A DNA stretch of 64,000 bases from Hyphomicrobiaceae bacterium (lineage in GTDB: Bacteria > Pseudomonadota > Alphaproteobacteria > Rhizobiales > Ancalomicrobiaceae): the NCBI GenBank assembly GCA_016793065.1, contig JAEULV010000003.1, positions 1 through 64,000 of the forward strand, in the 5' to 3' direction. Position 1 is the stretch's first letter. Each line of letters starts with the position of its first letter. Shown here one piece after another: positions 19,124 through 29,849 of this stretch. The notes beneath the pieces are model-generated. The model worked only from the letters and a program-made list of their open reading frames with translations, was not told the DNA's origin and did not search any database. Position numbers and translations under genes: made by a program.

Positions 19124-19698
19124 GAACAGGGTCTCCTCGGATCGGGATTTCGCGGTGACTTCCTTATAGAGGGCCGGCCGGCGAAGCTATCCCCGAAGCG
19201 GCGCAAAAGGACACGACGAAGTGCCGCGAAGGCGCTGGTACCACGGTCGGTTCGTCAGGCGAACCTTGTTCGATTGTCGTACTTTGTCGCAATCCGGACA
19301 AAAACTTGCGGTTGTTTCGATCTTTAATTTGCGGCAGATCAAGTAACTTGGCATGGTTGCGAGTCGATCTCATGTCGCGGAGGCGTATCGTCCGAAGTTA
19401 TCGACCAGACAGGCGATGAATTGACTACAAAATGGGCAGAAAAATGCGAGAGTCCGGTGATCCGGATGGTTCGACTACGAAAGTCGGTGATCCCAACATT
19501 TAATCTTGCCTAACATTTGCGCATTGATCAGCGCTTGCTGAAACACACAGTTAAGACCTTCCCTCTACGTTATTCATTAATTGAACAAATACACGTTCCG
19601 CATTCTTGCCTGTCGTGCGGACCGCAAGGATCAACGAGACCGGGCGCGGCCTTTCCGGCAGGGGAGGGGCGCCGGCCAGGCTCCAGGGGTTGGGAACC
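19124..19698. other. AT-rich spacer between ridA and the Cache receptor
   Basis: About 575 bases, richer in A+T than the genes. Two near-copies of a short motif (AGTCCGGTGATCC near 19450 and AGTCGGTGATCCC near 19481) lie about 30 bases apart. No coding frame is convincing. It presumably carries the promoters for both flanking genes. Confidence 0.5.
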
Positions 19699-20769
19699 AT
19701 GTCGTCAGACGTCGCCATCGCAGACATCGTCCGTTCGACCGTCAATACCCGCCGCATCACCGAGCGCAAGGTCGCCGACATCCGCGTCGTCACCAACCGG
19801 CTTCGCATCCTGGCTCTGAACGCTTTGATCGAGGCGAAGCGCGCCGGTGACATGGGGCGGGGGTTCTCCGTGGTCGCCGACGAGGTCAAGGGGATTTCGG
19901 CTGAGGTGGAAACGCTCTCGGGTCAATTGAGTCAGGAGCTGGTCGGCGAGATCAACCAGCTCGAGCGCCTGACCCGCGACATGGCCGAGCAGGCGCAGGG
20001 CACGCGCATGATCGACCTGGCGCTGAACGCCATCGAATTGATCGACCGCAATCTCTATGAGCGCACCTGCGACGTGCGCTGGTGGGCGACCGACACCGCG
20101 ATCGTCGACGCGGCGGCGCAGCCGTCGCGCGAGGCCTGCGACTATGCCGGGCATCGTCTCGGCGTCATTCTCGATGCCTATACCGTCTATCTCGACATCT
20201 GGCTGATCGATCTCGATGGCCGGGTGATCGCCAATGGCCGTCCGGACCGGTTCCAGGCGGCGGGGCATTCGGTGGCGGACCGGCCGTGGTTTGCCCAGTC
20301 GAAGCGCCTGCTTGACGGCAATGCCTATACGGTCAACGACATCGACCAGGAACATCTGCTGCGCGGCGCGCAGGTGGCCACCTATGCCACCGGCGTGCGC
20401 GAGGGCGGCGCCGCCAACGGCCGGCTGATCGGCGTGCTCGCGGTGCATTTCGACTGGGAACCGCAGGCACAGACCATCGTTTCGGGCGTGCGGATGTCGC
20501 CGGAAGAGGCGCAGCGCACCCGGGTGATGCTGGTCGACGGCAAGGGGCGGGTGATTGCCGCCTCGGATCGCTCCGGCATCCTCACCGAGCGCTTCCGGCT
20601 GGAAACCAACGGCAAGGCGTCGGGGCACTATCACGACGCGTTCGGCAATCTGGTGGCCTACCACCACACGCCCGGCTACGAGACCTATCGCGGCCTCGGC
20701 TGGCATGGAGTGATCGTGCAGAAGGCCGAGGCCCCGGCGCAATCGGCGCCGATGCGCCGCAGCGCCTGA
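19699..20769 (+). CDS. Soluble receptor: short chemotaxis signalling hairpin plus C-terminal Cache domain
   Basis: 356 residues from ATG 19699 (GGGGTTGGGA upstream). Residues about 10-100 form a short chemoreceptor-type hairpin, the tip being ALNALIEAKRAGDMGRGF (39-56) followed by SVVADEVKGIS; the canonical tip reads ALNAAIEAARAGE-GRGF. Residues about 115-350 form a Cache sensor (IDRNLYERTCDVRWWATD, LDIWLIDLDGRVIANGRPD, VADRPWFAQ). No membrane helix is visible, so it should be cytoplasmic. The order, signalling part before sensor, and the very short stalk are unusual. It may signal to a CheA array or regulate a partner; no che genes are nearby. Confidence 0.8.
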   Translation: MSSDVAIADIVRSTVNTRRITERKVADIRVVTNRLRILALNALIEAKRAGDMGRGFSVVADEVKGISAEVETLSGQLSQELVGEINQLERLTRDMAEQAQGTRMIDLALNAIELIDRNLYERTCDVRWWATDTAIVDAAAQPSREACDYAGHRLGVILDAYTVYLDIWLIDLDGRVIANGRPDRFQAAGHSVADRPWFAQSKRLLDGNAYTVNDIDQEHLLRGAQVATYATGVREGGAANGRLIGVLAVHFDWEPQAQTIVSGVRMSPEEAQRTRVMLVDGKGRVIAASDRSGILTERFRLETNGKASGHYHDAFGNLVAYHHTPGYETYRGLGWHGVIVQKAEAPAQSAPMRRSA

Positions 20770-20818: not shown

Positions 20819-22198
20819 TCAGGTGCCGCAGCGGATCGCCACCAGCGCGGCGGCGGAGGTGGCGACGATCTGGCCGACCGACAGCACGGTCGTGTCCCCA
20901 CCGGCGGCCGAGACGGATTCCTTCACCGGCAGCATTGCATAGGCCCGGGCCGGCGTGACGAGGCCGGCAATGCGGGTGCGCTCGTCCGGTCCGGCCTCGA
21001 GAACGCCGACCAATCGGCCAGCGCGGGTGAAGACGGCGGCGCCGGCGGAACCGGGCTGGATGCCGGCAAGGACGCGCATGCCCTTCGCGCCGGTGACGAA
21101 CTCTCCCGATGAGGCGACGAGGCGTGGCGTGCCGCCCTCGGCGGAAAAGCCGAGAACCACCGCCGCCATGCCGGGCTGAACCGGGACGGCGGCGCCGGCC
21201 TGCGGCTGTTTTCCCGCCAATTGCAGCAGGGCGACGCCCTCGGCCTCGCGCGCCACGACCACCGGCTGGCCGGCGATGCTGGCGCCGGGGCAGGCCTTCA
21301 GCGCCGGGGCGCTGGTGGCGACGAGTTCGGTCGAAACGCGGATGCCGCTGATCAGCCGCGTCGTCGCCGGCCCGGCGGTGGCCGTCGGCAGCCCGGCCGG
21401 CTGTTGCGGCGTCTGCGCGACCGGTGTCGCGGCCGGCGCGGCATCGGGGCGGAAGCTGTTGGACATGGCAACGGAGACGCGGTCGAGCTGCGGCCCGAGG
21501 GTCTTGTCGTAATCGAACTGGAAGCCGCGCGGCGCGCCGCCGGCGACCGGCACGCCGATGCGGATATAACTGCGGATCTTGTCGGTTTCGCTCGTCACCA
21601 CCAGCCAGTCGGCGCGCAACACCGCATAGGTGATCTTGACGCCGGGGCGCTCGGTCTTCAGCAGGTCGAACAGCGACGGCAGGTCGGTGCCGTTATAGAC
21701 GCGGGTGACGACGCGCACCTTGCCGTCGGCGGCGGCATAGGTCTGGCCATCGGCGCTGGCCTTTGGAGCGCCGAGGCGGGCGAGCGGCAGGCCGATCGTG
21801 ATGCCGGTCGGCTTGTCGGGGCCGATCTTGAAGCGTTCGGCGGTCTTGAACTGGGTGCCGGCGGCGAGCAGCGCCGTGCGCTCGGGCGGCGGCAGGATGC
21901 CGTCGACCACCAGCTTGGCGCGCTTCTCGAAGGCCTGGATGGCGTTGAAGCTGCCGCGGCCGAAGGCGCCGTCGAGCGGGCCGGAATAGTCGCCGGTCCA
22001 GACCAGCGCGTCCTGGATGGCGGCGCGGTCGGGTTCGGCCATGGCCTCGAAGGCAAGGCGCGCAGCCTCCAGCGCCGGGTTGACGGCGGCGGCCGGCACC
22101 GGGGCGGCGAGCGGCGTCTGGGCGTGGACCGGCGCGGTCGAGGCCAGGAGCAGCGGCAGGAGCGTCGCGGTCAGACAGGCCATATCGCGGCAATGCAT
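20819..22198 (-). CDS. Secreted peptidoglycan-binding protein with degenerate trypsin-like domain
   Basis: 459 residues. A signal peptide (1-27, ending VHA-QT) exports it. Residues about 57-115 are a peptidoglycan-binding-type helical repeat (IQDALVWTGDYSGPLDGAFGRGSFNAIQAFEKR). A middle domain spans about 130-250. Residues about 280-425 resemble a trypsin-like serine protease fold (LVATSAPALKAC, GVALLQL, PGSAGAAVF), but the three catalytic positions read Pro298, Gly321 and Ala385 instead of His, Asp and Ser. It is therefore probably a pseudo-protease. Start ATG 22198 has GAGGT seven bases upstream. Divergent from the alpha-2-macroglobulin gene. Confidence 0.8.
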   Translation of the reverse strand: MHCRDMACLTATLLPLLLASTAPVHAQTPLAAPVPAAAVNPALEAARLAFEAMAEPDRAAIQDALVWTGDYSGPLDGAFGRGSFNAIQAFEKRAKLVVDGILPPPERTALLAAGTQFKTAERFKIGPDKPTGITIGLPLARLGAPKASADGQTYAAADGKVRVVTRVYNGTDLPSLFDLLKTERPGVKITYAVLRADWLVVTSETDKIRSYIRIGVPVAGGAPRGFQFDYDKTLGPQLDRVSVAMSNSFRPDAAPAATPVAQTPQQPAGLPTATAGPATTRLISGIRVSTELVATSAPALKACPGASIAGQPVVVAREAEGVALLQLAGKQPQAGAAVPVQPGMAAVVLGFSAEGGTPRLVASSGEFVTGAKGMRVLAGIQPGSAGAAVFTRAGRLVGVLEAGPDERTRIAGLVTPARAYAMLPVKESVSAAGGDTTVLSVGQIVATSAAALVAIRCGT

Positions 22199-22441
22199 GG
22201 GCAATACCTCATGAAAGCGAGGGGCCGTGTTGCCGGTGCATCCGGCCCCAGAATGAATTCGGATTTCGCATTCGCATCAAAGCACGCGGACTATCGCACC
22301 CGATCCGGCGAGCCGTCGAGGCGCAAGCCGCCACGGCGGGCCACGGATCGGCGATATGCGTGTTTGCACGTAGTCTGTTTCGATCTTGGTCCCGCCACGA
22401 TCCCGGTTACGATGGCCGCATTGCTCCTGGAGTTTCACGAT

Positions 22442-25400
22442 ATGCGCATTCGTCCGCTTCTCGCCGCCGCCGCGACGGCCTTCGTGCTCTTCGGTTCCGG
22501 GTTGGTCCCGGCGCCCGTGTTGATCCCCGCCGTTTCGGCGCAGACAGCCGCGCCGGCCAAGGCGTGGGTGCGCGACGATCTCGCCAGCGAGGCGATCCGG
22601 CTGGAAGCGACGATCCTCAAGGAAATCAAGCCGTCCGGGCGGCCGCAGGCGCAACTGAAGGCCGAGGCGATTCGCCTGGCCGGGCTCGGCGAGTGGCGCA
22701 AGAGCTACGATTTCGCCCGGCAGTCGATCGCGGCGCTTCCGACGGACTGGCAGGCTTGGCGGCTGCTGGCGGAGGCGGCGGTCGAGATCTCGCCGAAGGA
22801 CTATTCCGAGAAATGGCAGATGCAGCAGGTGGGCCTGACCGCCGCCTATGCCGCCTACCAGCGGACGACGTCGGCGTCCGACGAGGCCGATGCGCTGGCA
22901 ACCCTCAGCTATGCCTATTCGCACCGGGAATATTGGCGGGCGGCGATCGACACGATGAAGCTGTCGATCGAGCGCAAGGACGATCCGGAGCGGCGCGACC
23001 GCTATGTCGAGCTGCGCGAGGAGCACGGCTTCCGCATTCTCGACTACAAGGTCGACAGCGATTCCGCCTCGCCGCGCGTCTGCGTCGAGTTCTCCGAGGA
23101 CCTGTCGCGGACGCAGAAGGATTTCTCGCCGTTCGTCGTGGTTTCGGGCGCCAAGAAGCCGGCCATCGTCGCCGAGGGCCAGCAGCTGTGCGTCGAGGGG
23201 ATGGAACATGGCGGCAAGTACCAGATCGTGGTGCGGCAGGGCCTACCGTCGACGGTCGGCGAGGCGCTCCTGAAGAATGCCGACTATGACATCTACGTGC
23301 GCGACCGGGCGCCGGCGGTGCGGTTCTCCGGGCGCAACTATGTGCTGCCGCGCACCGGGCAGGAGGGTCTGCCGGTCACGTCGGTGAACACCAGCGAGGT
23401 GGCGATCGGCCTTTATCGCATCGGCGACCGCAGCTTGCTGGAAACGCTGCGCAATGGCGGCTTCCTCGATCAGATCTCGCCCTATCAGGCCAACCAGATC
23501 GGCGAGGAGAAGGGCAAGGCGATCTGGCGCGGCTCGCTGGCGACGAAGTCGGACCTCAATCAGGACGTCGTCACGGCGTTTCCAGTGCTGGAGGCGGTCG
23601 GGCGGCTGGAGCCTGGGCTCTATGTGATGACGGCCGAGCCGGGTCCGCTGAAGGCGACCGGTTCGGACGAGGAGGACTGGGACGAGCGGGCGACGCAGTG
23701 GTTCGTCGTTTCCGACATCGGCCTGACCGCGCTCAAGGGCAATGACGGCGTCAACGTTCTGGTGCGGTCGCTGGCCAGCGCCAAGCCGATGGCGGATGTC
23801 GAGGTCCGGCTGATCGCGCGCAACAACGAGGTGCTGGCGTCGACCAGGTCGGATGCAAGCGGGCTGGTGACGTTCGCCGCCGGCCTCACCCGGGGTCAGG
23901 GCGGTTCGGCGCCGGTGCTGCTGGTGGCCTCGACGGGCGAGGGCGACTACGGCTTCGTCGATCTCGACAAGTCGGCGTTCGATCTGGCCGATCGCGGCGT
24001 CAAGGGCCGGACCGCGCCGGGGCCGCTCGATGCGCTGGTGGTGACCGAACGCGGCGTCTATCGCTCGGGCGAGACGGTGCAGGTGACGACTCTGCTGCGC
24101 GATGCGCTCGGTGCCAGCGTCGGCGACATGCCGCTGACGCTGATCGTCTATCGCCCGGACGGCGTCGAATACCGCAAGGTGTCGGTCGCCGATCAGGGCG
24201 AGGGCGGTCGGGCGCTGTCGGTGACGCTCCTGTCGGGCATCCAGACCGGAACGTGGCGGGTGGCGGCGTTTACCGACCCGAAGCGGCCGGCGATCGGCGA
24301 GACGACCTTCCTGGTCGAGGACTATCTGCCCGAGCGGCTGGACGTGACGCTGGCGCCGAAGAGCGAGAGGCTTGCCGCCGGATCGCCGGCCGAAATCGGC
24401 GTCGACGTGCGCTATCTCTACGGCGCGCCGGGGGCGGATCTGAATATTGCCGGCAATATCGCGGTGACGCTGGCCGAGGGGCTGACGATTCCGGGGCTCG
24501 CCGGCTATGAGGCCGGACTGGCGGACGAGGAATTCGAGGCGATCGACCAGCCGCTGGAGGAGACGGCGACGACCGACGCCAAGGGCCATGCCGACATGGC
24601 CATCAACATTCCCGAAACGACGACGTCGCGGGGATTGCAGGCGACGATCACGCTCAGGGCGGAAGAGACCGGCGGGCGGGCCGTGGCGCGGTCGGTGACC
24701 TTGCCGATCCTGCCGCCGCAACCGGTGATCGCGGTGAAGAAGCTGTTCGATCCGGGCTCGATCAGTGCCGGGGCACAGGCGAAATTCGCCGTGGTGGCGG
24801 CGGGGCCGGATGGCACGCGGCTGAACCTGAAGAATGTCCGCTGGGAACTGCGCAAGGTGACGACGCGCTGGCAGTGGTTCCGCTCCGACGGTTCGTGGAA
24901 CTCGGAGAAGGTGGTGAACTCGGCGCGGGTCGCCGACGGGCAGATGGCGCTCGGCGCCGGCGATCCGGCGCAGCTGGCGGTGCCGGTGGACTGGGGCAGC
25001 TACCGGCTGGACGTGGTCGCCGATGGCGGCGAGGCGGCGCGGGTCAGCGTGATGTTCAACGTCGGCTGGGGCAGCGGCGGTGCATCGGCCGATGCGCCGG
25101 ACGGGCTCGACGTGGCGATCGACAAGGCCGCCTACAAGGCGGGCGAGACGATCGAGGCGCGGATCACCTCGCGGTTTGCCGGAACGGCGACGATCGCGGT
25201 GATCGCCGATACGATCAAGTCGACGCAGGTCATCGACATTCCGGCCGGCGGCTCGACGGTTTCGCTCAAGGCCGATCCCGCCTGGGGCGCGGGGGCCTAT
25301 CTGGTGGCGTTCGCGCATCGGCCACTCGACGTGCAGGCGCATCGCATGCCCGGCCGGGCCATCGGCCTGAAGTGGTTCGCGATCGAGCCGGAGGCGCGGC

Positions 25401-27718
25401 GGCTGGAGGTGACGCTGTCGGCGCCGGCGCAGATGCGGCCGCATGGTCCGCTGGCGATCCCGGTGAAGCTTTCGGGCATGGCTGCGGGCGAGAAGGCGTT
25501 CGTGACGATTTCGGCGGTGGATGTCGGCATCCTCAACCTGACCGGCTACAAGACGCCGAACCCGCATGAGCACTATTTCGGCCAGCGCTCGCTCGCCACC
25601 GAGATCCGCGACATCTATGGCAGCCTGATCGACGGCATGCAGGGCGCGCGTGGCGCCATCCGCTCGGGCGGCGACGAATCCCAGGCCGAGCTTGGCGGTT
25701 CGCCGCCGCGCGAGGCGCCGCTGGCGTTCTATTCCGGCGTGGTGGAAGTGGGCGCCGACGGCACCGCCAGGGTGGCGTTCGAGATTCCGGGCTTTGCCGG
25801 CACCCTGCGGGTGGCGGTGCTGGCCTGGTCGAAGTCGCGGGTCGGCAGTGCCTCGGCCGATGTGATCGTGCGCGATCCGGTGGTGACGACGGCGACGCTG
25901 CCGCGCTTCATCAGCCTCGGTGACGTGTCGACGCTGCATGTGGACGTCGACAATGTCGAGGGTGCGGCCGGCGACTACACGGTCGACGTCGACATTCGCG
26001 GCCCGATCAGCATTCCCGCCGATGTGGCGCGCTCGACGCTGAAGCTGGCGGCGAAGGGGCGGGCCGGCATCGACCTGCCGGTCACCGCGACCGGCATGGG
26101 CACGGCGCATGTCGACCTGCGGCTCATCGGTCCGGGCGGCATCGACGTCACCCGGCAGATGGTGCTGGGGGCACAGCCGGCGACGCCGGTGGTCGATCGC
26201 CGGACGATCCGCCCGCTGGCGGCGGGGGCGTCGGTGACGCTCTCCAACGATCTCTTCGCCGAATTCCTGCCCGGCACCGGGCGGCTGTCGGTGTCGGTGG
26301 CGCCGCTGTCGGCGCTGGACGTGCCGGCGCTGCTGGCCCAGCTCGACCGCTATCCCTATGGCTGCTCGGAACAGATCACCTCGCGGGCGATGCCGCTGCT
26401 CTATGCCAACGACCTGGCGGTCAGCGAGCATCTGAGCCTCGACGTCAAGATCGAGGATCGGCTGAAGGACGCGATCGACCGGCTGATGGCGCGGCAGGGG
26501 GCGAACGGTTCGTTCGGCCTGTGGTCGGCCGGCGGCGACGACATGTGGCTCGATGCCTATATCGCCGACTTCCTCACCCGGGCGCGGGAAAAGGGCTTCG
26601 CCGTGCCGCAGAAGGGCTTCGAGATGGTGCTCGACCGGCTGCGGAACTTCGTCGCCAACACCTCGGAGGTGAAGGGCAACAGCGAGGAACTGGCCTATTC
26701 CGTCTATGTGCTGGCCCGCAACGGCCGGCCGGTGATGGGCGACCTGCGTTATCTCGCCGACACCAAGCTCGGCGAGTTCAACACGCCGCTGTCGCGGGCG
26801 CAGATCGGCGCGGCGCTGGCGCTGCTCGGCGATCGCGGCCGGGCGCAGCCGGTGTTCGCCTCGGCGTCGGATGCGTTCCTGGCGGCCAAGCGCGACACCG
26901 TCTCGCGGGTGGACTTCGGCTCGAAACTGCGGGACGGCGCCGGCATCGTGGCGCTGATCGCCGAAACGGGTGTCGGCCGCGGCGATATCGGCCGCATCGG
27001 CCCGGCGCTCGATGCCGAGCGCTCGGCCTTGAGCCATGTCTCGACCCAGGAAATGGGCTGGCTGATCCTGGCGGCGCATGCGATGGGCAAGGATCTCGAC
27101 AAGCTGCAGCTCGACGTCAACGGCGAGAGCCGCACCGGTGCCTTCCACCGCACCTGGCGCGGGCTGGCGCTCGACGACAAGCCGGTAATGATCACCAACC
27201 GCTCGACCATCCCGGCGCAGCTCGTCGTGTCGGCGGCGGGTCATCCGATGCAGCCGACGCCGGCGATCGAACGCGGCTACAAGATCGAGCGCAGCTACTA
27301 TTCGATGGAGGGCAAGAAGGTCGATCCGTCGAAGGTGCGGCAGACCGACCGCTTCGTCGTCGTGCTGCGGATCACCGAGCCGGAATCGAAATACGCCCGG
27401 CTGCTGATCGTCGATCATCTGCCGGCGGGGCTTGAAATCGACAATCCCAAGTTGGTCGAAGGCTCGGAGACGGCGAATTTCAACTGGCTGAAGCGGGAGA
27501 TCGAGCCGGAAAACACCGAATACCGCGATGATCGCTTCGTCGCGGCGATCGACCGCGCCAGCGGGCAGAAGGCGGTGTTCGAACTGGCCTACATCGTCCG
27601 CGCCGTGTCGCCGGGCCGCTACATCCATCCGCCGGCGATCATCGAGGACATGTACCGGCCGGACCGCTATGCCTCGACCGGCTATGGCGTGATGGAAGTG
27701 ACCAAGGCGAAACCCTGA
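22442..27718 (+). CDS. Bacterial alpha-2-macroglobulin family protein
   Basis: 1758 residues, the usual size for bacterial protease-trapping alpha-2-macroglobulins (YfhM type). A signal peptide (1-34, ending VSA-QT) precedes N-terminal repeats of MG domains, a bait region and, at about 1300-1600, the thioester domain with the CxEQ motif C1308-S-E-Q1311 (YPYGCSEQ). The thioester crosslinks attacking proteases. The signal peptide has no lipobox cysteine, unlike the lipoprotein YfhM of E. coli. ATG 22442 has GGAG nine bases before it; open frames further upstream are not real. Operon-like with pbpC, the standard pairing for this family. Confidence 0.95.
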   Translation: MRIRPLLAAAATAFVLFGSGLVPAPVLIPAVSAQTAAPAKAWVRDDLASEAIRLEATILKEIKPSGRPQAQLKAEAIRLAGLGEWRKSYDFARQSIAALPTDWQAWRLLAEAAVEISPKDYSEKWQMQQVGLTAAYAAYQRTTSASDEADALATLSYAYSHREYWRAAIDTMKLSIERKDDPERRDRYVELREEHGFRILDYKVDSDSASPRVCVEFSEDLSRTQKDFSPFVVVSGAKKPAIVAEGQQLCVEGMEHGGKYQIVVRQGLPSTVGEALLKNADYDIYVRDRAPAVRFSGRNYVLPRTGQEGLPVTSVNTSEVAIGLYRIGDRSLLETLRNGGFLDQISPYQANQIGEEKGKAIWRGSLATKSDLNQDVVTAFPVLEAVGRLEPGLYVMTAEPGPLKATGSDEEDWDERATQWFVVSDIGLTALKGNDGVNVLVRSLASAKPMADVEVRLIARNNEVLASTRSDASGLVTFAAGLTRGQGGSAPVLLVASTGEGDYGFVDLDKSAFDLADRGVKGRTAPGPLDALVVTERGVYRSGETVQVTTLLRDALGASVGDMPLTLIVYRPDGVEYRKVSVADQGEGGRALSVTLLSGIQTGTWRVAAFTDPKRPAIGETTFLVEDYLPERLDVTLAPKSERLAAGSPAEIGVDVRYLYGAPGADLNIAGNIAVTLAEGLTIPGLAGYEAGLADEEFEAIDQPLEETATTDAKGHADMAINIPETTTSRGLQATITLRAEETGGRAVARSVTLPILPPQPVIAVKKLFDPGSISAGAQAKFAVVAAGPDGTRLNLKNVRWELRKVTTRWQWFRSDGSWNSEKVVNSARVADGQMALGAGDPAQLAVPVDWGSYRLDVVADGGEAARVSVMFNVGWGSGGASADAPDGLDVAIDKAAYKAGETIEARITSRFAGTATIAVIADTIKSTQVIDIPAGGSTVSLKADPAWGAGAYLVAFAHRPLDVQAHRMPGRAIGLKWFAIEPEARRLEVTLSAPAQMRPHGPLAIPVKLSGMAAGEKAFVTISAVDVGILNLTGYKTPNPHEHYFGQRSLATEIRDIYGSLIDGMQGARGAIRSGGDESQAELGGSPPREAPLAFYSGVVEVGADGTARVAFEIPGFAGTLRVAVLAWSKSRVGSASADVIVRDPVVTTATLPRFISLGDVSTLHVDVDNVEGAAGDYTVDVDIRGPISIPADVARSTLKLAAKGRAGIDLPVTATGMGTAHVDLRLIGPGGIDVTRQMVLGAQPATPVVDRRTIRPLAAGASVTLSNDLFAEFLPGTGRLSVSVAPLSALDVPALLAQLDRYPYGCSEQITSRAMPLLYANDLAVSEHLSLDVKIEDRLKDAIDRLMARQGANGSFGLWSAGGDDMWLDAYIADFLTRAREKGFAVPQKGFEMVLDRLRNFVANTSEVKGNSEELAYSVYVLARNGRPVMGDLRYLADTKLGEFNTPLSRAQIGAALALLGDRGRAQPVFASASDAFLAAKRDTVSRVDFGSKLRDGAGIVALIAETGVGRGDIGRIGPALDAERSALSHVSTQEMGWLILAAHAMGKDLDKLQLDVNGESRTGAFHRTWRGLALDDKPVMITNRSTIPAQLVVSAAGHPMQPTPAIERGYKIERSYYSMEGKKVDPSKVRQTDRFVVVLRITEPESKYARLLIVDHLPAGLEIDNPKLVEGSETANFNWLKREIEPENTEYRDDRFVAAIDRASGQKAVFELAYIVRAVSPGRYIHPPAIIEDMYRPDRYASTGYGVMEVTKAKP

Positions 27719-27734
27719 GGCGCGGGGACGGGCC

Positions 27735-29849
27735 GTGAGCGCATTGGCATCGCCGCGAACCGGACAGGATCGCCGCTGGCGGACGGGGCTTGCCGTCGGC
27801 GCGGTGGCGGCGGCGTTCGTGCTGTCGACGGCGATCGCCACCGGCGTGGCGTTCGTCGACCGACTCGGCCCGCTCGACCTGGCGCCGACGCGGGTGCATT
27901 CGCCGATCGTCGTCGACCGGTCCGGACAGCTGTTGCGGCCGTTCACCACGGCCGACGGCCGCTGGCGCCTGCCGGTCGGGGTCGACGATGTCGATCCGCG
28001 CTTCCTGGCCCTGCTGCAAACCTACGAGGACCGGCGCTTCCATCGCCATGGCGGCGTCGACTATGTCGCCATGGCGCGGGCGAGCTGGCAGATGCTGACC
28101 AGCCGGCGGGTGATTTCCGGCGGTTCGACGCTGACGATGCAGGTGGCGCGATTGCTGGAGCCGCGCGAGGAGCGCAGCCTTGCCGCCAAGGCGCGGCAGG
28201 TGGCGCGGGCCTGGCAGCTGGAAGGCCGGCTCGGCAAGGGCCGCATTCTAGATCTCTATCTGACGCTGGCGCCCTATGGCGGCAATATCGAGGGCATCCG
28301 CGCCGCGTCCTTCGCCTATTTCGGCAAGGAGCCGAAGCGGCTGTCGCTGGGCGAGGCGGCGCTGCTGGTGGCGCTGCCGCAATCGCCGGAAACGCGGCGG
28401 CCGGATCGTTCGCCGGCGCAGGCGCGCGCCGCGCGCGACCGGGTGATCGACCGGGCGCTTGCCGCCGGCACGGTGACGGCGCTGGAGGCGAACGACGCCA
28501 AGGCCGAGCCGGTGCCGCAGGCGCGCGCACCGTTTCCGATGCACGCGGCGCATCTGGCGGAAGCGCGGGTGGCGGCGCAGCCGAAGACGGCGATCCACCG
28601 CACCACCATCGACGCGTCATTGCAGATATCGCTGGAGGCGATGCTGCGCGACCGGGTGTCGCCGATGGGGCCGAAGCTGTCGGCCGGGGCGCTGGTCGTC
28701 GATGTCGCCAGCGGCGAGATCCGCGCATCGGTCGGGGGTGTCGACTATCTCTCGGGCGACCGGGCCGGCTCGCTCGACATGACGCGGGCGCTGCGTTCGC
28801 CCGGGTCGGCATTGAAGCCCTATGTCTATGCGATGGCGTTCGAAAGCGGGCTCGCCCATCCCGAGACCATCGTCGAGGACCGGCCGTCGCGGTTCGGGGC
28901 GTGGGCGCCGGAGAATTTCGACCTCACCTATCAGGGCACCCTGACGGCGCGGCGGGCGCTGCAGATGTCGCTGAATGTGCCGGCGGTCGACATGCTGGCC
29001 GAGGTCGGGCCGTTGCGGTTTCTCGCCCGGCTGAAGACGGCGGGGGCGGAGATCGCCATGCCCGACGCGTCGGCGCCGGGGTTGGCGGTGGTGCTCGGCG
29101 GGCTCGGCACCCGGCTCACCGATCTGGCGCGGCTGGCGACCGGGCTGGCGCGCGGCGGCGAGGTGATCGACCTCGTCGACCGGCCCGATGCGCCGCGGGC
29201 GACGCCGACGCGGATCTTCGATCCGGTGGCGGCCTGGTACATCTGGGACATCCTGAAATCGGCGCCGCCGCCGCCCAATGCCGCCTCGGGGCGGATCGCG
29301 TTCAAGACCGGCACGTCGTTCGGCTATCGCGACGCGTGGGCGATCGGCTACGACCGGCGGCAGGTGATCGCGATCTGGGTCGGGCGGCCGGACGGGATGT
29401 CGGTGCCGGGGCTGGTCGGGCGACAGGTGGCGGCGCCGCTGCTGTTCGAGGCCTATGCCCGCAGCGGCCAGCCGCCCGAGCCGATCGAGCGGCCGGCGGA
29501 TGTGCTGCTGGCGACGACGGCGACGCTGCCGCCGCCGTTGCGGCACCTGCGCTCGGATGTGCCGAAGACCATTGCCGCGACGACGGATGTGCCGTTGCGC
29601 ATCGCCTATCCGCCGGACGGGGCGCTGATCGACCTGGGGCTGAAACTGGCGGGGGGCATGGCCGAGCCGCTGGCGCTGAAGGCCTCGGGCGGGGTGCCGC
29701 CGTTGCGCTGGCTGGTCAACGGCGTGCCGGTCGGGGCGGCGGACGTGCGCCGGCAGGCGGCGTGGCAGCCGGACGGGGCCGGATTCGCCGAGGTTTCGGT
29801 GATCGACGCGCGCGGCGCGACGGCGTCGGCCTCGGTTCGCGTCGAGTGA
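27735..29849 (+). CDS. pbpC: Penicillin-binding protein 1C
   Basis: 704 residues from GTG 27735, 16 bases after the alpha-2-macroglobulin stop. One N-terminal membrane helix (about 17-37). Glycosyltransferase (GT51) motifs: YEDRRFHRHGGVD with the catalytic Glu, and GGSTLTMQVARLL. Transpeptidase motifs: SPGSALKPY (SxxK), SLN (SxN), KTGTSFGYRDAW (KTG). The C-terminal 90 residues match the PBP1C-specific domain (PPDGALIDL...LKASGGVPPLRWLVNG). It is a periplasmic peptidoglycan synthase thought to repair the wall where the alpha-2-macroglobulin acts. All active-site motifs are intact. Confidence 0.95.
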   Translation: MSALASPRTGQDRRWRTGLAVGAVAAAFVLSTAIATGVAFVDRLGPLDLAPTRVHSPIVVDRSGQLLRPFTTADGRWRLPVGVDDVDPRFLALLQTYEDRRFHRHGGVDYVAMARASWQMLTSRRVISGGSTLTMQVARLLEPREERSLAAKARQVARAWQLEGRLGKGRILDLYLTLAPYGGNIEGIRAASFAYFGKEPKRLSLGEAALLVALPQSPETRRPDRSPAQARAARDRVIDRALAAGTVTALEANDAKAEPVPQARAPFPMHAAHLAEARVAAQPKTAIHRTTIDASLQISLEAMLRDRVSPMGPKLSAGALVVDVASGEIRASVGGVDYLSGDRAGSLDMTRALRSPGSALKPYVYAMAFESGLAHPETIVEDRPSRFGAWAPENFDLTYQGTLTARRALQMSLNVPAVDMLAEVGPLRFLARLKTAGAEIAMPDASAPGLAVVLGGLGTRLTDLARLATGLARGGEVIDLVDRPDAPRATPTRIFDPVAAWYIWDILKSAPPPPNAASGRIAFKTGTSFGYRDAWAIGYDRRQVIAIWVGRPDGMSVPGLVGRQVAAPLLFEAYARSGQPPEPIERPADVLLATTATLPPPLRHLRSDVPKTIAATTDVPLRIAYPPDGALIDLGLKLAGGMAEPLALKASGGVPPLRWLVNGVPVGAADVRRQAAWQPDGAGFAEVSVIDARGATASASVRVE

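Follow-up and report, generated by a model that had tools for sequence, protein, structure and literature searches.

The stretch analysed here, referred to below as the window, is a 64,000-nucleotide piece of DNA from a Hyphomicrobiaceae bacterium (contig JAEULV010000003.1, positions 1 to 64,000; Ancalomicrobiaceae in the GTDB lineage). Between positions 20,819 and 29,849 it carries a gene for a peptidoglycan (PG)-binding protein with a trypsin-like domain devoid of its catalytic residues, and, diverging from it, genes for an alpha-2-macroglobulin (A2M) and for penicillin-binding protein 1C (PBP1C, the pbpC product). A first-pass annotation, made from the letters alone, had described the locus in these terms and had proposed that the dead protease serves the macroglobulin, a protease trap, as a decoy, tether or sensor. 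The pseudoprotease gene and its parts are as follows.

20819..22198, minus strand: pseudoprotease gene (PG-binding; "PGT"), 459 aa, from the open reading frame (ORF), Pfam and a homologue alignment
22118..22198, minus strand: predicted signal peptide, residues 1-27, ending in APVHAQ, with the cleavage site placed by eye on the sequence
21893..22033, minus strand: PG_binding_1 domain, residues 56-102 (Pfam E 5.4e-8; match to the PG-binding domain of SleB, 6tci)
21452..21838, minus strand: middle domain, residues 121-249, with a PsbP-like fold (AlphaFold pLDDT >93 per block; Foldseek 2xb3, E 2.2e-5)
20822..21358, minus strand: trypsin/HtrA-fold pseudoprotease domain, residues 281-459 (Pfam, profile, AlphaFold and Foldseek)
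21305..21307, minus strand: Pro298, at the catalytic His position
21236..21238, minus strand: Gly321, at the catalytic Asp position
21044..21046, minus strand: Ala385, at the catalytic Ser position (all three by alignment to intact homologues)
21290..21292, minus strand: Cys303, kept in almost every member, whether active or not, and likely joined to Cys457 by a disulfide
20828-20830, minus strand: Cys457, the presumed partner of Cys303

The coordinates, strand and PG-binding domain first assigned to this 459-aa ORF were borne out. Its PG_binding_1 domain scores 33.3 bits in Pfam, above the curated cut-off of 23, and was found in 60 of 76 family members; by this homology, the protein is predicted to bind the cell wall, and by its signal peptide to be secreted. 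An alternative TTG start is possible at 22204 on the minus strand.

Searched as a single sequence, the C-terminal domain gives only a Trypsin_2 match at residues 285-399 that falls short of the curated Pfam cut-off (E 9.8e-4; 20.3 versus 27.6 bits). The assignment to a trypsin/HtrA double-barrel fold is nonetheless firm, because the family profile and the predicted structure both return S1 proteases. The family-alignment profile has its top PDB match in the serine protease Rv3671c (3k6z, E 6.4e-24), followed by HtrA, DegP and DegS. An AlphaFold model of the whole protein, built with a 76-row family alignment, has a mean pLDDT of 87, and Foldseek places its C-terminal region with the S1 proteases V8, Rv3671c and SplA. 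The domain modelled alone (residues 279-459, 66 homologues), a check that the first-pass annotation had called for, returned the same fold at a pLDDT of 91 and a pTM of 0.88, with Foldseek matches to SplA, V8, DegP and Rv3671c at probability 1.00. Since the TM-scores are about 0.5-0.6, the domain would be a shorter or diverged form of the S1 fold. The S1C domain of RsgI9 (7sjy) is also among its profile and fold matches.

The His-Asp-Ser (H-D-S) triad is absent from the window protein. Against the TNAHVV, TNDIALL and QPGNSGGPL motifs of intact homologues, the catalytic positions are occupied by Pro298, Gly321 and Ala385, just as first noticed. Nor is a triad hidden elsewhere in the domain, an outcome that would have undone the original reading: the protein has just two histidines (residues 2 and 25), both within the predicted signal peptide, so that residues 28-459 contain none and a classical triad is impossible. 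Degeneration is general in the family to which the window belongs, where 14 of 14 homologues have a degenerate triad (one, L036, ends before the Ser position). The replacements differ between genera, with A, R or S at the His position, G, A or T at the Asp position, and L, V, Q, T, F or H at the Ser position; the strands around the lost triad and both cysteines are retained. Cys303 and Cys457 are also present in 26 of 26 H-D-S-intact members, and a disulfide between them is likely.

The dead domain is under purifying selection and is still doing something. Its dN/dS, calculated by the Nei-Gojobori method for seven close pairs that do not include the window copy, is 0.11-0.28; this resembles the PG-binding and middle region (0.13-0.31) and lies below the linker (0.24-0.74), which argues that the domain is functional. 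A pseudogene or a relaxed domain is ruled out by these values and by the open frame found in every full-length homologue. With its fold retained, its catalytic residues lost and selection maintained, the domain qualifies as an S1-type pseudoprotease.

Homologues were drawn from 397 genomes of the window's order, together with a scan of named records and fetched neighbourhoods. This yielded 147 full-length places, of which 135 were distinct and entered the tree set; a careful tree was built from 79 rows and rooted on the assumption that intact proteases are ancestral. Twenty-six of the 135 distinct places keep H-D-S intact, and the others are fully or partly degenerate. The degenerate members from the Hyphomicrobiales form a single clade of 52 rows (support 100/100), with sisters in other families that retain both H-D-S and the same PG-binding and PsbP-like layout. 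Nested inside the inactive clade are a Xanthobacteraceae-type clade with His gone and Asp and Ser often retained (LDS, QDS), a small second clade reading GDG or AGA, and a 38-row clade (98/98) that contains the window protein and all members paired with A2M. The His position changes twice on the 79-row tree, compared with eight changes at Asp and five at Ser. From these counts and the nesting of the clades, the order of events is therefore that His was lost first, that more losses came later, and that A2M pairing arose in the last clade alone.

Several further observations concern this family. In the Xanthobacteraceae-type genomes (family f35; L043 and L162-L209), members with His alone replaced by L or Q, often keeping Asp and Ser, are intermediates in the death of a protease. 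A further large group of trypsin-fold proteins with a PG-binding domain, from Rhodobacteraceae and a few others (L108-L154), is unpaired with A2M. Nearly all of its members are degenerate: the His position carries Glu, Asp or Ala, the Asp position carries Gly, and the Ser motif reads LPGDAGGPV. The placement of the degenerate Rhodobacteraceae members relative to the intact ones is weakly supported in the tree. One genome (G303) holds two copies, a dead one paired with A2M and an H-D-S-intact one (L163 and L186). The terminal branch leading to the window copy is unusually long (1.21 versus a median of 0.46) despite the same genomic setting.

The features on the other side of the divergent pair are these.

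22199..22441, no strand: intergenic region common to the head-to-head pair, 243 bp, from the gene coordinates
22442..27718, plus strand: Type I (thioester) A2M, 1758 aa, from Pfam and PDB matches, with an N-terminal signal that has no lipobox Cys
26363..26374, plus strand: CSEQ thioester motif, A2M residues 1308-1311, read from the sequence
27735..29849, plus strand: pbpC, penicillin-binding protein 1C, 704 aa (TIGR02073, 665.8 bits against a cut-off of 494.2)

The earlier identification of the divergent neighbour as an A2M with an intact CSEQ, followed by pbpC, thus proved correct. The window A2M has both the CxEQ thioester and the MG, BRD and TED domains of Type I proteins, and it matches YfhM (4ziq) across 1470 residues at E 2e-152. 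A lipoprotein anchor like that of YfhM is absent; the first Cys is residue 214, and the protein therefore cannot bear one. CxEQ is intact in all A2Ms examined except for a fragment (L091), the thioester domain of which lies outside the fetched DNA. The window pbpC product carries the SPGSALK and KTG motifs.

The head-to-head pairing recurs in many genera and is not peculiar to the window genome; restriction to that genome would have counted heavily against the first-pass annotation. The window's own family (f1, Ancalomicrobiaceae) includes Siculibacillus, Pinisolibacter and Prosthecomicrobium hirschii, and a second family (f42) includes Methylobacterium gnaphalii; other family names are less certain. 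The pseudoprotease gene is present in 14 of 15 genomes of f1 and stands head-to-head with A2M-pbpC in 11 of the 14 (G013 could not be judged, as its contig ends there). The same pairing occurs in 13 of 14 genomes of f42 and at named Chelatococcus, Salinarimonadaceae and Beijerinckiaceae loci, so that several families of soil and plant bacteria have retained it. The distance from domain start to domain start in these pairs is mostly 165-600 bp. Across f1 and f42, both genes occur in 28 genomes, A2M only in 3, the pseudoprotease only in none and neither in 3 (Fisher p 0.003, uncorrected for descent). No pairing was seen in any of the 16 f35 genomes or with any H-D-S-intact member, and A2M itself, present in 308 of the 397 genomes, is far commoner than the pairing. 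A search for a shared regulatory motif in the intergenic regions of the pairs found none: apart from GC-rich words, no k-mer stood out clearly from the shuffled sequences.

Type I A2Ms often lie in an operon with pbpC, and it has been proposed that A2M traps proteases while PBP1C mends the wall (PMC4498604). Our preferred reading, held tentatively and with the function deduced from context, is that the pseudoprotease could be a non-catalytic accessory of this A2M-PBP1C envelope-defence module. The comparative data show that an ancestral serine protease of the HtrA/Rv3671c type, with PG-binding and PsbP-like domains, lost its His first; Asp and Ser then went lineage by lineage, while selection preserved the fold, both cysteines and the wall-binding domain. 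In a later common ancestor of the Ancalomicrobiaceae, Methylobacterium, Chelatococcus, Salinarimonadaceae and Beijerinckiaceae relatives, the gene came to lie head-to-head with A2M-pbpC, and in most descendants it stayed there. The wall-binding domain would keep the old protease cleft close to peptidoglycan, where the cleft could bind, but would not cut, a partner protein or peptide: A2M, PBP1C or an incoming substrate. Conceivably, the wall-bound protein localises A2M, which in this order has no evident lipid anchor. A stronger version is unlikely: across much of the Hyphomicrobiales, the Type I A2M-PBP1C system would always need the wall-anchored pseudoprotease as its third component, which would bind A2M or PBP1C through its dead cleft, position the trap at the peptidoglycan and replace the enterobacterial lipid anchor.

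Inactivation is not an adaptation to the adjoining A2M, since the larger clade, with its unlinked members, had already lost His; for the same reason, the idea that pairing with A2M caused the triad loss is not supported, as unlinked Xanthobacteraceae-type relatives share the older His loss. A number of observations weigh against the accessory role. The pairing arose once, and its conservation could partly reflect slow loss of gene order. On at least two occasions the linkage was broken while both genes were kept, so that divergent transcription is not indispensable. In the f42 exception (G225), A2M-pbpC lies on a separate contig, and eight named Methylobacterium loci, judged with 10 kb flanks and forming one subclade with G225, are likewise unpaired with both genes kept. 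Two Prosthecomicrobium-type genomes (G001 and G007) are unpaired as well, with the pseudoprotease about 6 kb beyond pbpC and transporter, ion channel, sulfotransferase and glycan genes in between (L221, 1075-16603). Three genomes of f1 and f42 (G004, G055 and G157) have A2M without the pseudoprotease, and inactive members unlinked to A2M occur in Xanthobacteraceae-type genomes and in Rhodobacteraceae. The A2M lipobox, too, is missing in genomes that have no pairing, so that its absence is no specific pointer to the pseudoprotease.

Much of this suits a different account, itself quite possible, in which the conserved wall-binding pseudoprotease has an independent role in the envelope, for instance by binding peptides of the wall or a client of the HtrA type, and came to adjoin A2M-pbpC by a chance rearrangement that was kept by descent. 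A single origin of the pairing, inactivation that predates it, intergenic regions with no common motif, and the persistence of unlinked inactive members in Xanthobacteraceae-type, Rhodobacteraceae and some Methylobacterium genomes all fit such a bystander. What tells against it is the short head-to-head spacing, kept over five or more families despite roughly 35-40% identity around it, which is more than gene-order drift usually leaves, and the fact that in the linked families the pseudoprotease was not seen without A2M. A direct action on the trap, with the dead protease docking on A2M, at its bait region or its thioester domain, to prime, block or report, is distinctly unlikely, even though a protease fold lies beside a protease trap and all paired members are catalytically dead, with no intact member paired. 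The His loss precedes the pairing, and nothing linking the domain to A2M was found in the pattern of its residues or surface. Moreover, trapping is set off by cleavage of the bait (PMC4498604), and a protein that is unable to cut would not trigger it. Of the earlier proposal, then, a link to the module stands as plausible, given a conserved degenerate S1 gene paired with it in many genera, and the decoy, tether or sensor role for the trap as originally framed does not, because the His loss is older than the pairing and the linkage is breakable. Among those three roles, a wall tether would suit the domain layout best.

Two further accounts concern the domain itself. An S1 domain turned ligand-binding module for wall fragments, comparable to the S1C-like domain of RsgI9, which is reported to be able to bind cellulose (PMC12203970), would fit the PG-binding domain on the same chain and the 7sjy matches; the pseudoprotease has no transmembrane or signalling part, and such a glycan- or peptide-binding sensor is very improbable. 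Residual or alternative catalysis, for example by a Lys or Cys dyad elsewhere, is barely conceivable. Cys303 and Cys457 are indeed conserved, but both are kept in intact proteases too, suggesting a disulfide, and the mature protein has no His while positions 298, 321 and 385 vary among homologues. The accessory role thus remains the one we would tentatively prefer.

Comparison with known systems helps to place the locus. S1 proteases of the HtrA/Deg and Rv3671c (MarP) types share the fold and the secreted or periplasmic location of the window protein; they have membrane helices or PDZ domains, whereas the window protein has PG-binding and PsbP-like domains and has lost all three catalytic residues. 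MamO is likewise an alphaproteobacterial trypsin-fold pseudoprotease, reused in non-catalytic roles (PMC4794232), but it is a magnetosome protein that binds metal through a surface di-histidine motif, and the window protein has no mature His and another domain layout. Inactive serine protease homologues are a known kind, a 2008 survey having counted 42 catalytically inactive ones among 966 proteins from 91 prokaryotic genomes (PMC2605481). The yfhM-pbpC locus of E. coli resembles the window locus in its intact CxEQ and in having pbpC directly downstream (PMC4498604). However, YfhM is an inner-membrane-anchored lipoprotein, unlike the window A2M with no Cys before residue 214, and the accounts consulted name no third, divergent pseudoprotease gene there. 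The mag operon of P. aeruginosa also sets an A2M among neighbouring genes: its product MagD is bound and stabilised by its operon neighbours (PMC5764988) and confers protection from T6SS effectors aimed at the wall (PMC12663445). As MagD is a Type II A2M without a thioester, encoded among six co-directional genes, the window locus with its thioester A2M and pbpC is not mag-type.

A2M-pbpC pairing and bacterial pseudoproteases are thus each already known. In the literature searched, a limited set in which absence is no proof, no description was found of this pseudoprotease family, its three-gene arrangement, or pseudoproteases beside A2M; apparently this family, tied to an already known defence module, is undescribed, yet it is no new kind of system. 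Why bacteria keep thioester macroglobulins beside a wall synthase is still a matter of hypothesis (proteases would be trapped first and the wall then repaired), and a conserved inactive wall-binding protease in the same head-to-head unit offers a candidate partner and a concrete handle on the question. The stepwise death of a protease, beginning with His, is also well resolved in this family, and active sisters of the same layout can serve for comparison.

Several loci have long open frames on the strand opposite the pseudoprotease or A2M gene. In the window, one spans 21221-22441 on the plus strand (407 codons, upstream of the A2M start), and frames of 1700-1900 codons occur in L030, L035 and L037; these are probably artefacts of high GC content. 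Tail-to-tail with the pseudoprotease gene lies a plus-strand gene (19606-20766) in which an MCP signalling domain (59-146) precedes a weak dCache_1 match (125-326), the opposite of the usual sensor-then-signalling arrangement.

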